In this document: piece by piece, positions 37,356 to 41,593 of the stretch
Layout of the letters: the number at the start of each line of letters is the position of its first letter
Numbering within the stretch: the stretch's first letter is position 1
Assembly (NCBI GenBank): GCA_015490805.1
Contig: WFXC01000027.1
Location: forward strand, 1 to 51,155
From: Candidatus Kapaibacterium sp.
GTDB taxonomy: Bacteria; Bacteroidota; Ignavibacteria; Kapaibacteriales; WFXC01
DNA length: 51,155 bases
Direction of reading: 5' to 3'
Notes under the pieces: generated by a model
The model's input: the letters and a program-made list of their open reading frames with translations, nothing else
Told to the model about the DNA's origin: nothing
Database searches by the model: none
Made by a program: the position numbers and the translations under genes

Positions 37356-37369
37356 TAGTTGTGCAACTA
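37356..37369. promoter_or_regulatory. Dyad TAGTTGTGCAACTA just before radA
   Basis: Perfect 6-base arms around TG, ending 9 bases before the radA ATG at 37379. Its position suits an operator or a small hairpin in the leader. It is the second dyad in the same short region. Confidence 0.4.
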
Positions 37370-37378
37370 ATATGCCAG

Positions 37379-38761
37379 ATGGCAAAGATGAAGCGGAAAA
37401 CGGTGTATGTATGCCAGAGCTGTGGTGCACACTCCCCCCGATGGGTGGGACGATGTCCCGCCTGCGGTGAGTGGAACAGTATGGTTGAAGAGCAACAATC
37501 AAGTGTTACGAAGAAAACGGAAACTCCAGTGCCCTCGATTATTCCGCTGGATGCAGATGATACCGAGCCACTGGAGCGAATTCTTACGAACATTGGCGAG
37601 TTTGATCGTGTCGTCGGCGGCGGTATCGTCCCCGGCTCCACCATCCTCATTGGTGGTGATCCCGGCATTGGAAAATCCACTCTAATGCTGCAAGTATTGA
37701 GCCAGCTTGAACAATATCAGCCACTCTACGTTACGGGGGAAGAGTCGGTTCAGCAAATACGCGCCCGCGCCGCGCGTCTGGGCATCCTTCACCCCTCAAT
37801 CGGGCTGGTAACCACCACCTCCACTGAAGCAGTGCTGGAATTGCTGGAGCAAAGCAGTACGCGGGTGATGGTCATCGATTCTATCCAAACGATGGCAACC
37901 GCAACCTTAGAGTCAGCACCGGGCAGCATTGCCCAGATTCGGGAATCGGCTGCGCTCCTTACCCGAGCAGCAAAACAGCGCAATGTTGCATTGCTACTGA
38001 TTGGACACATCACCAAAGAAGGTGCATTAGCTGGTCCGAAAGTACTGGAACATATTGTTGATACGGTCTTGCAATTTGAAGGCGAACGCTTCCACACATA
38101 TCGGTTACTCCGTGCACTAAAGAATCGCTATGGTTCCACGAACGAACTGGGTATTTTTGAAATGACGGATCTGGGATTGCGCGAAGTTCCCAATCCTTCC
38201 GAATTCTTTCTCTCCGCGGCAACCCAGGGAGAATCCGGCTCTGTCATCACGATTGCCGTTGAGGGCAGCCGTCCTCTGGCATTGGAAGTGCAAAGTTTGG
38301 TCACACCGTCCAGCTACGCCACGCCGCAGCGCAGCTCTATGGGATTCGACATTCGCCGGCTTCATATGCTGATTGCTGTTCTGGAAAAGCGACTGGGACT
38401 GGCGCTGGGACGTTACGACGTTTTTGTCAACATCGCTGGCGGTATGCGAACTTCTGACCCCGGTGTTGATTTCGCCGTCGCCACGGCTATCATCAGCTCC
38501 CTGCGCGACATTCCCGTTGCGAAAGATCTGGTAGTTTTTGGAGAGATCGGTCTAACCGGTGAAATCCGCCCCGTCCATTTGCTGGAACAACGGGTCAAAG
38601 AAGCAGCCCGGCTGGGAATGAAAACCGTTTATGCACCCCAACTTCCTTCAGCGCCGCAATCTCTCCCGCTCCAGTGGCGTTCTGTGGAACGCCTGGTTCC
38701 TGCCATTGTCCAGATCTTTGGAAAACACCACACTCGCCAGGCGGCAAGCCATTCTTCATAA
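37379..38761 (+). CDS. radA: DNA repair protein RadA (Sms)
   Basis: Branch-migration ATPase of recombination repair. The zinc finger uses C12, C15, C26 and C29 (CQSCGAHSPRWVGRCPACGE region); Walker A GGDPGIGKS is at 92-100; the RadA-specific KNRYGSTNE is at 248-256; the C-terminal Lon-protease-like domain follows from about 280. Length is 460 residues. ATG at 37379 was preferred; ATG at 37388 and GTG at 37361 are possible. It is divergent from the GAF kinase and precedes a tRNA gene by 44 bases. Confidence 0.95.
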   Translation: MAKMKRKTVYVCQSCGAHSPRWVGRCPACGEWNSMVEEQQSSVTKKTETPVPSIIPLDADDTEPLERILTNIGEFDRVVGGGIVPGSTILIGGDPGIGKSTLMLQVLSQLEQYQPLYVTGEESVQQIRARAARLGILHPSIGLVTTTSTEAVLELLEQSSTRVMVIDSIQTMATATLESAPGSIAQIRESAALLTRAAKQRNVALLLIGHITKEGALAGPKVLEHIVDTVLQFEGERFHTYRLLRALKNRYGSTNELGIFEMTDLGLREVPNPSEFFLSAATQGESGSVITIAVEGSRPLALEVQSLVTPSSYATPQRSSMGFDIRRLHMLIAVLEKRLGLALGRYDVFVNIAGGMRTSDPGVDFAVATAIISSLRDIPVAKDLVVFGEIGLTGEIRPVHLLEQRVKEAARLGMKTVYAPQLPSAPQSLPLQWRSVERLVPAIVQIFGKHHTRQAASHSS

Positions 38762-38805: not shown

Positions 38806-38897
38806 GGAAAGGTGCCGGAGCGGTCGAACGGGCTCGCCTGGAGAGCGAGTGTGCCCTTAGCGGGGCACCGTGGGTTCGAATCCCACCCTTTCCGCCA
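38806..38897 (+). tRNA. tRNA-Ser (anticodon GGA)
   Basis: Acceptor stem GGAAAGG (38806-38812) pairs with CCTTTCC (38887-38893), with discriminator G and an encoded CCA. The anticodon stem CTCGC/GCGAG encloses the loop CTGGAGA, so the anticodon is GGA (reads UCC/UCU). A long variable arm (TGTGCCC...GGGGCACC) and the T arm GTGGGTTCGAATCCCAC confirm a class II serine tRNA. The array of 98-bp repeats begins about 100 bases downstream. Confidence 0.97.
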
Positions 38898-38993: not shown

Positions 38994-40312
38994 GCAAAAA
39001 ATTGTCCGCTTAGGTGTATATAAGAGTAGAAAGCCCGTGACTCTTTCCGCCCCCCAACTCTGCAAATGTACCTCCAATTTGTTCCGCCAGCGCAAAAAAT
39101 TGCTCGCTTATGTGTATATAAAAGTAAGGAGCCGATCGCTGTTTCCCATTGCTCTCCTTTGAATTCGGAATCGCAGCAGCCAATTTCCCTTACCAATGCA
39201 AAAAATTGCCTGCTTGCGGATAATAAACAGTGAGAAGCTCTTTGGAGGGCTTCCCCTCCTCCAGCCTCCCGGTATCTTCTTTCCTTGCCGCGCAAAAATT
39301 TGCCCGCTTAGGTGTATATAAAAGTAGAAAGCCACAGGTTATTTCTGCCGCCGAATTCACAAATGCACCTCCGACCTGTTCCGTCAGCGCAAAAAATCGT
39401 CCGCTTATGTGTATAAGAGTAGAAACCCAGTGGTGTTATCTGCTCCTCAGGCTTCCACAAAATCCCTATTTTTTCCATTGGCGACGCAAAAATTTGCCCA
39501 CTTGCGGATAATAAATAGTGAGAAGCCCTTTTGGAGGTTTCCCTCTCCGGTCCTTCCGGCGTCTTTCTTTCACCGCCAGCGCAAAAAATTGCCTGCTTAC
39601 GTGTATATAAGAGTAGAAAGCCGGTGGCTCTTTTCGCCCCCAAATTCGCAAATGTACCTCCAATTTGTTCCACCAGCGCAAAAAATTGTCCGCTTGCGTG
39701 TATATAAGAGTAGAAAGCCAGTGGCTCTTTCCGCCACCGAATTCATAAATGCACCTCCGATCTGTTCCACCAGCGCAAAAAATTGCCCGCTTCTGTGTAT
39801 ATAAGGGTAGAAAGCCGGAGCTTCATTCCCGCCACCGAATCCACCAGAACAGTTTTAATCCTTTCCACCAGCGCAAAAAATTGCCTGCTTATGTGTATAT
39901 AAGGGTAGAAAGCCAATTCCTGTTCTCCCTTGCCCCTGAAGCTTCAGGATACAGCCGCCATTTCTCTGGCTAATGCACAAATTTGTCCGCTCGCGGATAA
40001 TAAATAGTAAGCAGCCCTTTGGAGGTTTCCCTCTCCGGTCCTTCCGGCGTCTTTCTTTCACCGCCAGCGCAAAAAATCGCCTGCTTACGTGTATATAAGA
40101 GTAGAAGCCGGTGGTGTTATCTGCTCTCCCCGCAGGTGCCCGCCAAAATTCCTATCCTGCCGCGAGCAACGCAAAAAATCGCCCGCTTAGGTGTATATAA
40201 AAGTAGAAAGCCAGTAGCATTTCCGCCGCTGAATTCGCAAGTGCACCTTTCTGATCCGCTCCGCCAGCGCAAAAAATTGCCTGCTTGCGTGTATATAAGA
40301 GTAGAAAGCTGA
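38994..40312. repeat. Array of at least 14 diverged ~98-bp tandem units
   Basis: Cores start at 38994, 39092, 39198, 39292, 39389, 39486, 39581, 39678, 39775, 39873, 39975, 40069, 40171 and 40269, with periods of 94-106 bases. Most cores read close to GCAAAAAATTGCCTGCTTA followed by a TATATA box and AGAGTAGAAAGCC. Three (39198, 39486, 39975) replace the box with GGATAATAAATAGTGAGAAG. The inter-core segments fall into a few homologous classes rather than being unique. No gene of convincing length is present on either strand: the period is mostly not a multiple of three, and short open frames here are translations of the repeat. No cas gene or transposase was found nearby. Function unknown. Confidence 0.93.
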
Positions 40313-40711
40313 TTGGGGTTCAGCGGTTCCCGGCAAAATCAAATTTTTATCTACCATTTTTAAGCATAGCCAGGTCACTGGTTATGCTCACCAATTATGG
40401 AAAAGCCGGGCACATTGTTCTCGCAACGTTCTCTATGTGACTGAGACCGTCAAAAAAAGCAAACAATCCCAAAGCAGTGAACTGGACACCTCACCGAGAA
40501 CACCACTTTAGCCGATAGAAATTTCCCCTCCCTTTGAGATAAGGTCAGGATGAGGAACAATGCACGCTGAAGCGTGCGCTCCCAGCGAACCGGGAGCGCC
40601 GGCTTTAGCCGGCAAAAGAAAAAAGAATGCTCGTTGCAGCAGGCGTTTTCAGACAATCCACACCACCGTGTGCGCTCCCAACAGAGCACAAGGTGCCAGC
40701 AAGGTGCAGCG
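40313..40711. other. Gene-free stretch with dispersed palindromes
   Basis: No gene seen. It holds the palindromes GCACGCTGAAGCGTGC (40562-40577) and GCCGGCTTTAGCCGGC (40598-40613), bracketing GCTCCC and GGGAGC boxes in opposite orientation, and a partial copy near 40657-40680 (CACACCACCGTGTG then CGCTCCC). These belong to the same family as the hairpins at 11692-11877. Confidence 0.75.
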
Positions 40712-41593
40712 TCATTTGTCGTTTAAGAAAATAGGTGGAACGGTCTGCCCACCACCGAGAATGAGGATTTTCGTATTCGGTGATTTTGCCAGTTCCTTCT
40801 GCACTTTGAGCATTTCATACTGCAACACTTCCGGTGTAAGCGCTTTGGCAAGAATGCGTTGTGCATCAGCGATGCCCTGTGCTTCTATGCGCTTCAGCTC
40901 TGCTTCCTTGCGACCCTTTTGCAGCACAAATTCCATTCGCTGCGCTTCTTGAATCGCCGCAATTTTCCGTTCGATGGTTTCTTTGATCGACGGTGGCAAC
41001 GCAATGTTGCGAATCAGCACTGATTCCAGCTCAATGCCACGGCGGCGGTAGTCATCAGCGATCACCTGAGTAATCCGCTGTTGAAATTCATCCCGTTTCT
41101 CCGAATACAGATCCACCGCATCGTACTCCACTGCTAACTCTCGAATTCGAGAGCGAGCAATGGGTCGTACGATCTTATCCTCGAAATCAAAACCAATAGT
41201 TCGATAAATCTCCGGCGCTTTTTCTGGAATAACCCGGTACAGAATAGTCACATCCAGCGCAACTTCCAGCCCGTCTTTACTCAGTACCCGGATCGCATCG
41301 GTTTCTCCCGCCATTGTGTAATTGCGCGTTTTGATCGAAATGGTTCGGATTTCTGCCAGTGGATTGACCACATTCAGTCCCTCGTGCAACACTTCATCCC
41401 GCACTTTACCAAACAGAATTTGGATGCCCACTTCGCCGGGCTCGATCTGCTCGATCGATGCCATTGCGAACCCCACCAATGCTAAGATCACGCCTGCGGA
41501 TAGCAAGGGCGTCCGAAAGCGGCGCAGCTCACTGGATTTTGCCATAAATAAAGCGGCAACGATGAACAAGATCCCAAAAATAACCAGTCCCAT
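40712..41593 (-). CDS. Prohibitin-like SPFH-domain membrane protein
   Basis: Inner-membrane SPFH (stomatin/prohibitin/flotillin/HflK-C) protein of 293 residues that would form ring scaffolds and often controls proteases such as FtsH. Hydrophobic segments are at 1-18 and 28-46, then the SPFH domain (VGIQILFGKVRDEVLHEGLNVVNPLAEI region to about 215) and a charged helical tail rich in Ala, Glu and Lys (IERKIAAIQEAQRMEF). The end ILILGGGQTVPPIFL is typical of the prohibitin group. It stands alone between the repeat region and pta. Confidence 0.92.
   Translation of the reverse strand: MGLVIFGILFIVAALFMAKSSELRRFRTPLLSAGVILALVGFAMASIEQIEPGEVGIQILFGKVRDEVLHEGLNVVNPLAEIRTISIKTRNYTMAGETDAIRVLSKDGLEVALDVTILYRVIPEKAPEIYRTIGFDFEDKIVRPIARSRIRELAVEYDAVDLYSEKRDEFQQRITQVIADDYRRRGIELESVLIRNIALPPSIKETIERKIAAIQEAQRMEFVLQKGRKEAELKRIEAQGIADAQRILAKALTPEVLQYEMLKVQKELAKSPNTKILILGGGQTVPPIFLNDK

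Follow-up and report, generated by a model that had tools for sequence, protein, structure and literature searches.

Beside a tRNA-Ser gene of Candidatus Kapaibacterium sp., a gene-free stretch is filled with direct repeats. An initial annotation of this locus had proposed three possible roles: an array that binds protein, a set of units for small RNAs or terminators, or the remains of repeated insertions next to the tRNA. What are these repeats, and what might they do? The window analysed here is the whole stretch of 51,155 nucleotides, contig C27 of a genome of 2.67 Mb in 48 contigs; genome-wide statistics were obtained by searches of this genome. The RadA encoded in the window shares 97% identity with one from 'Candidatus Kapaibacterium sp.', which places the organism in the Kapaibacteria group of Bacteroidota.

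Results

A tandem array at the same site in three species

The array consists of 14 direct units whose cores start 94-106 bp apart, mostly 97 (Table 1, where each unit is given from its core start). TRF also detected this array. With radA and tRNA-Ser(GGA) on its left and an hflK/C-like gene on its right, the annotated array of at least 14 units beside tRNA-Ser was confirmed. Unit lengths of 94, 95, 97, 98, 102 and 106 bp have no common codon phase, as had been noted before, which rules out a protein-coding array.

Two genomes of the same genus carry arrays at the same place and with the same flanks, namely radA-tRNA-Ser on the left and a conserved right flank with an hfl-like gene on the right. 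These arrays comprise at least 12 and at least 16 units, as the contigs break inside them, and the unit orders differ. Because the two congeners were assembled separately, an assembly artefact can be ruled out. Some units of a single array are identical or nearly so. In 58 other genomes of the order no array was found; two of these contain one stray core match each, with 1-2 mismatches. A search for tandem repeats of at least 40 bp in the other retrieved radA loci yielded one unrelated 45-bp array. The hfl-side flank carries species-specific insertions. REP-like GC-rich imperfect palindromes or short repeats are dispersed, lying at 40560-40620 in the window (GCACGCTGAAGCGTGCGCTCCC ... GGGAGCGCCGGCTTTAGCCGGC) and at 36457-36843 of contig C44.

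Table 1. Features of the array locus (window coordinates).
Feature	Coordinates	Strand	Remarks
radA (sms), upstream gene	37361..38761	+	TIGR00416, E 8.5e-169
tRNA-Ser(GGA), left neighbour of the array	38806..38897	+	
Tandem array, 14 direct units	38994..40312	+	each a ~42-nt bipartite core and 51-64 nt of inter-core; last unit core only
Unit 1	38994..39091	+	inter-core class A
Unit 2	39092..39197	+	inter-core class B
Unit 3	39198..39291	+	GATAATAA box; inter-core loosely C-type
Unit 4	39292..39388	+	inter-core class A
Unit 5	39389..39485	+	inter-core class D; box shortened to TGTGTATAAG
Unit 6	39486..39580	+	GATAATAA box; C-type inter-core
Unit 7	39581..39677	+	inter-core class A
GCAAAAA upstream box of a typical unit (unit 7)	39581..39587	+	putative -33/-35 box
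GTGTATATAAG downstream box, unit 7	39601..39611	+	putative -7/-10 box
Unit 8	39678..39774	+	inter-core class A
Unit 9	39775..39872	+	singleton inter-core
Unit 10	39873..39974	+	singleton inter-core
Unit 11	39975..40068	+	GATAATAA box; C-type inter-core
Unit 12	40069..40170	+	inter-core class D
Unit 13	40171..40268	+	inter-core class A
Unit 14	40269..40310	+	core only; continues into the segment listed next
Conserved structured segment after the last unit	40329..40438	+	candidate RNA; genus only; 96-100% identity in three species
hflK/hflC-like gene, convergent right neighbour	40712..41593	-	TIGR01933, E 4e-9, below curated cut-off

The core consists of two conserved boxes at a fixed distance

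The conservation ascribed earlier to the whole core was located more precisely by pairwise differences among 15 class-A units of the three species. The upstream box GCAAAAA differs by 1.9% and the GTGTATATAAG box by 2.3%, figures that are descriptive in their exact values since the box boundaries were set after inspection. The two boxes thus bear out the claim, but the 13 bases between them are as variable (23.3%) as the inter-core (25.2%). Despite its variable sequence, this spacer has a constant length in nearly all units. Directly after the second box, AGTAGAAAGCC differs by 9.5%, against 25% in the inter-core of the same class. In a permutation test of the whole core against the inter-core, which treats sites as independent, heterozygosity was 0.10 and 0.23, respectively (p 0.0002). 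Core identity is 84% between units of different inter-core classes and 84% within one class. The low variation of the boxes compared with spacer and inter-core supports the view that the units contain a selected element. The evidential strength lies in the many diverged units; footprinting of the C44 sites described below has low power, the three species being close relatives.

Three units (3, 6 and 11) carry a GATAATAA box; two of them have near-identical inter-cores, to which the third is loosely similar. In unit 5 the box is short by two bases, and the 'strict' conservation of the A/T box, while nearly correct, was therefore worded slightly too strongly. The core is bipartite, with two conserved boxes at a fixed distance. 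A constant distance with free sequence between the boxes is the signature of a promoter; a bipartite operator gives an equal picture.

Inter-core sequences fall into unrelated, pyrimidine-rich classes

The inter-cores form several classes. Class A is large and occurs in all three species, as do B and D; the C type, which goes with the GATAATAA box, occurs in two species and E in one, and there are several singletons. Core and inter-core had both been taken as homologous throughout the array. This is true of the core, but inter-cores are homologous within classes only: alignments between classes reach 53%, compared with 49% for shuffled sequence. The inter-core classes that were queried do not occur elsewhere in the genome.

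On the + strand the inter-cores contain 59-75% pyrimidines in all 37 units examined. The word ACCTCC, complementary to ribosome-binding sites and thus anti-Shine-Dalgarno-like, is over-represented in the array of this species (4 copies versus 0.3 expected), all four copies lying within class A and hence not being independent. Individual units form hairpins, for example units 3 and 8. A hairpin or fold common to the units was not found, and the folding z scores scatter around 0; a shared RNA hairpin was therefore rejected. No intrinsic terminator-like site was detected on the + strand of the array either; together with the missing common hairpin this leaves terminator units without support on the + strand. 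With Rfam covariance models the tRNA was the sole match in the window, and the C44 and congener loci gave none, so that a known Rfam RNA family was rejected.

The longest word shared by array and tRNA is 10 nt, a length reached by 12% of control stretches. This is chance level and dismisses tRNA-derived repeats; with the absence of the queried inter-core classes elsewhere in the genome, it also removes support from a relic of insertions at the tRNA. The earlier statement that the array is not a CRISPR was upheld: instead of unique spacers matching phages or plasmids, there are inter-cores that recur in classes and have no phage, plasmid or viral match.

The same motif recurs at a cluster of genes for probably exported proteins

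A 29-bp core pattern with at most 2 mismatches has 16 matches in the genome and none in the reversed control. The two-box motif (17 fixed positions, at most 3 mismatches; 5 matches in the reversed control) was found solely in the array, in one cluster on contig C44 and in three background matches with 3 mismatches each. The C44 sites, at 38998 (-), 40995 (-), 41049 (+), 44686 (+), 49163 (+), 51496 (+) and 53638 (+), are confined to 15 kb. The proteins encoded in this cluster are probably exported, several have a thioredoxin-like part (CxxC) and some form paralogue pairs; none has a family name. Considered over C44:36958-54632, the proteins of this cluster are thioredoxin-like or coiled-coil.

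The core at C44:53638 terminates in TATATTTG, which is a perfect Bacteroidota -7 box. AAGGAG (Shine-Dalgarno) comes next, and 38 nt after the core an ATG (53706) starts a probably secreted protein of 309 aa. This arrangement has textbook promoter geometry. A variant core at C44:40995 (-) lies 35 nt upstream of a gene start. The core at C44:41049 is followed by a 108-nt hairpin (fold z -5.8) that is 98% identical in a second species. This near-perfect hairpin (C44:41079-41187, L010:1080-1188; G001:C63:78847-78956 in the second genome) is a candidate RNA and belongs to no Rfam family. Among the leaders of the other C44 cores, four of five have no notable fold and one has a z score of -2.0.

Both congeners possess the C44 cluster together with its cores. 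Here, homology between species breaks exactly at the core ends, gene cassettes between cores having been lost or gained. The C44 cores are embedded in longer direct repeats.

The core resembles a variant Bacteroidota promoter

The consensus of Bacteroidota sigma-ABfr promoters is TTTG at -33 and TAnnTTTG at -7 (PMC7366714). In the genome the pattern TTTG-N-TAnnTTTG has 61 matches against 20 in the control, mostly with a spacing of N19-N20. The core agrees with these promoters in the position of its boxes, as GCAA/CGCA occupies the exact TTTG register and the distance from the first box to TAnnTTTG is 19-20 nt. Array copies read TATATAAG, matching TAnnTTTG at 6 of 8 positions; the copy at C44:53638 matches perfectly. 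Unlike in sigma-ABfr promoters, the copies have GCAAAAA instead of TTTG in the -33 register. We infer from this comparison a variant Bacteroidota promoter, the first box of which would be read by another sigma factor or by an activator. The proposed protein-binding array thus gains support as a protein-DNA element, and is narrowed to a promoter-like one whose motif is common to the C44 gene cluster.

A simple scan for sigma-70 type promoters, the scope of which excludes Bacteroidota promoters, remained at chance level. On the minus strand two class-A units read TTTG-N22-TACATTTG. Minus strand promoters were rejected, as the usual spacing differs from N22 and classes other than A are without the pattern. 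Very similar TTTGG-N-TAnnTTTG promoters lie near several contig starts (among them C18:173-204, C31:173-204, C33:123-154 and C40:332-363) and probably mark a mobile element present in repeated copies, at which the assembly breaks.

A conserved segment follows the last core

An inter-core of the array type is missing from the last unit; its core is continued by a conserved segment in which an 11-bp hairpin and a closing stem can form. This segment folds better than shuffled sequence (z -2.97), equally well on the minus strand (z about -3 on both strands), and is only moderately more conserved than the neighbouring gene. No + strand terminator was found between the array and the segment. A short open frame (MLTNYGKAG...FSM) lies within the segment, its stop at an equal position in all three species.

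Discussion

We tentatively favour a reading of the array as tandem copies of one regulon-specific promoter that would produce short CU-rich RNAs. Each unit would be a small transcription unit on the + strand. Its core would be the promoter of one regulon, with GCAAAAA in place of the Bacteroidota -33 TTTG and TATATAAG or GATAATAA as the -7 box. Transcription would start near AGTAGAAAGCC and yield a short CU-rich RNA, the sequence of which would depend on the unit class. GCAAAAA might be read by an alternative sigma factor or by an activator, and through this shared signal the 14 or more units would fire together with the genes for exported proteins on C44. The resulting burst of small RNAs could pair with purine-rich ribosome-binding sites, and the last unit might also express the conserved structured segment. 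In this proposal we infer transcription, start sites, regulator and RNA targets alike. As no intrinsic terminator was found on the + strand of the array, processing or read-through would be required for discrete short RNAs. Transcription of the minus strand is also possible: a purine-poor transcript reverses the usual mRNA composition. A more specific version is possible too, though on the unlikely side, in which 14 or more near-identical promoters release a genus-specific mixture of different short RNAs with several unrelated bodies together with the exported-protein cluster, while the set of units changes between species by gain, loss and reordering.

The lack of an RNA structure shared by the units counts against small RNAs, and a bipartite operator would leave the same two-box pattern as a promoter. 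The main rival, in our estimate a rather unlikely one, is a decoy array: its units would capture the sigma factor or regulator of the C44 regulon and so stabilise the amount that is free, with inter-cores as spacers and incidental transcripts. Such titration agrees with a bipartite motif common to array and regulon, with 14 sites in the array against about seven at genes, with conserved boxes next to inter-cores that drift and switch freely between classes, and with the lack of a unit-shared structure or terminator. A pure decoy, however, would need neither the conserved AGTAGAAAGCC after the second box nor a pyrimidine bias kept in every inter-core class, and a structured segment that is conserved follows the last core. 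If all units instead fired into this segment as their one product, its near identity in three species, its occurrence nowhere else, its fold and the missing terminator between it and the array would fit, and the core at C44:41049 likewise precedes a strongly folding conserved segment. We consider this improbable, given that 14 promoters for one RNA are unusual, that the minus strand folds just as well and that the segment exceeds the neighbouring gene only moderately in conservation.

The array might also have no role, being a promoter fragment duplicated by slippage and spread by unequal exchange. Copy number and order vary between species, and identical or near-identical units in one array look like recent duplications. 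Even drift would then be expected, but variation is concentrated outside the two short boxes, as the permutation test of core against inter-core reflects, and three species have retained the array; passive turnover is improbable. A core acting as a recombination or insertion site, in the manner of integron or CRISPR cassettes, would fit the breaks of homology exactly at the C44 core ends and the loss or gain of a cassette between two cores. For these breaks ordinary homologous recombination between the longer direct repeats around the C44 cores suffices, however, and with inter-cores that repeat by class and gave no match to phage, plasmid or viral contigs, cassettes are very improbable.

If the units do fire, the Kapaibacteria would have a multi-copy promoter/small-RNA array in which RNA bodies are exchangeable and the promoter is fixed. 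It would then be a natural system for asking why many copies of one switch are kept, be it for dose, target diversity or titration of the regulator. The analysis yields a putative promoter motif specific to the genus, and it delimits a set of probably exported thioredoxin-like proteins; both are directly testable.

Comparison with known systems

The rtT repeats of E. coli tyrT are non-coding, arranged in tandem, and directly follow a tRNA gene. The array units differ from them in lacking the tRNA 3' end. MIRU/VNTR minisatellites have units of 50-100 bp arranged head-to-tail in variable copy number, and by this general description the array is like them in unit length, order and varying copy number. 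It is unlike them in its two conserved boxes, in a motif common to a gene cluster and in drift that is uneven along the unit. Literature searches for natural promoter arrays or decoys returned nothing useful.

In Listeria, LhrC1-5 are near-identical small RNA genes, four of them at one locus; a single regulator controls them, and their CU-rich motifs pair with a Shine-Dalgarno sequence (PMC4132741). The copies are 111-114 nt long and have defined stem-loops and a terminator. The units of the array, ~97 nt including the promoter, differ in having no common fold and no + strand terminator.

NsiR1, known from heterocystous cyanobacteria, is encoded in Nostoc sp. PCC 7120 upstream of hetF in 12 tandem copies of ~60 nt in a gene-free stretch, each copy with its own regulon-specific promoter (DIF1 motif), and some copies are identical while others have diverged (PMC9045159). 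The array shares with NsiR1 the tandem direct repeats in a gene-free stretch and, as predicted here, a promoter-like two-box core with a free spacer in all 14 units. As with NsiR1, the promoter motif also stands at genes elsewhere, here at the C44 cluster only, which suggests co-regulation. Unlike NsiR1, the array has no single RNA body, its inter-cores forming several unrelated classes; its promoter boxes are of another type, and it lies by a tRNA-Ser gene in a Bacteroidota lineage and is known from its sequence. We therefore do not file it as a member, for want of a common RNA body, but in architecture it would work like NsiR1. By analogy, the pyrimidine bias and the ACCTCC words would fit short CU-rich RNAs in the style of LhrC, produced in the way of the NsiR1 array.
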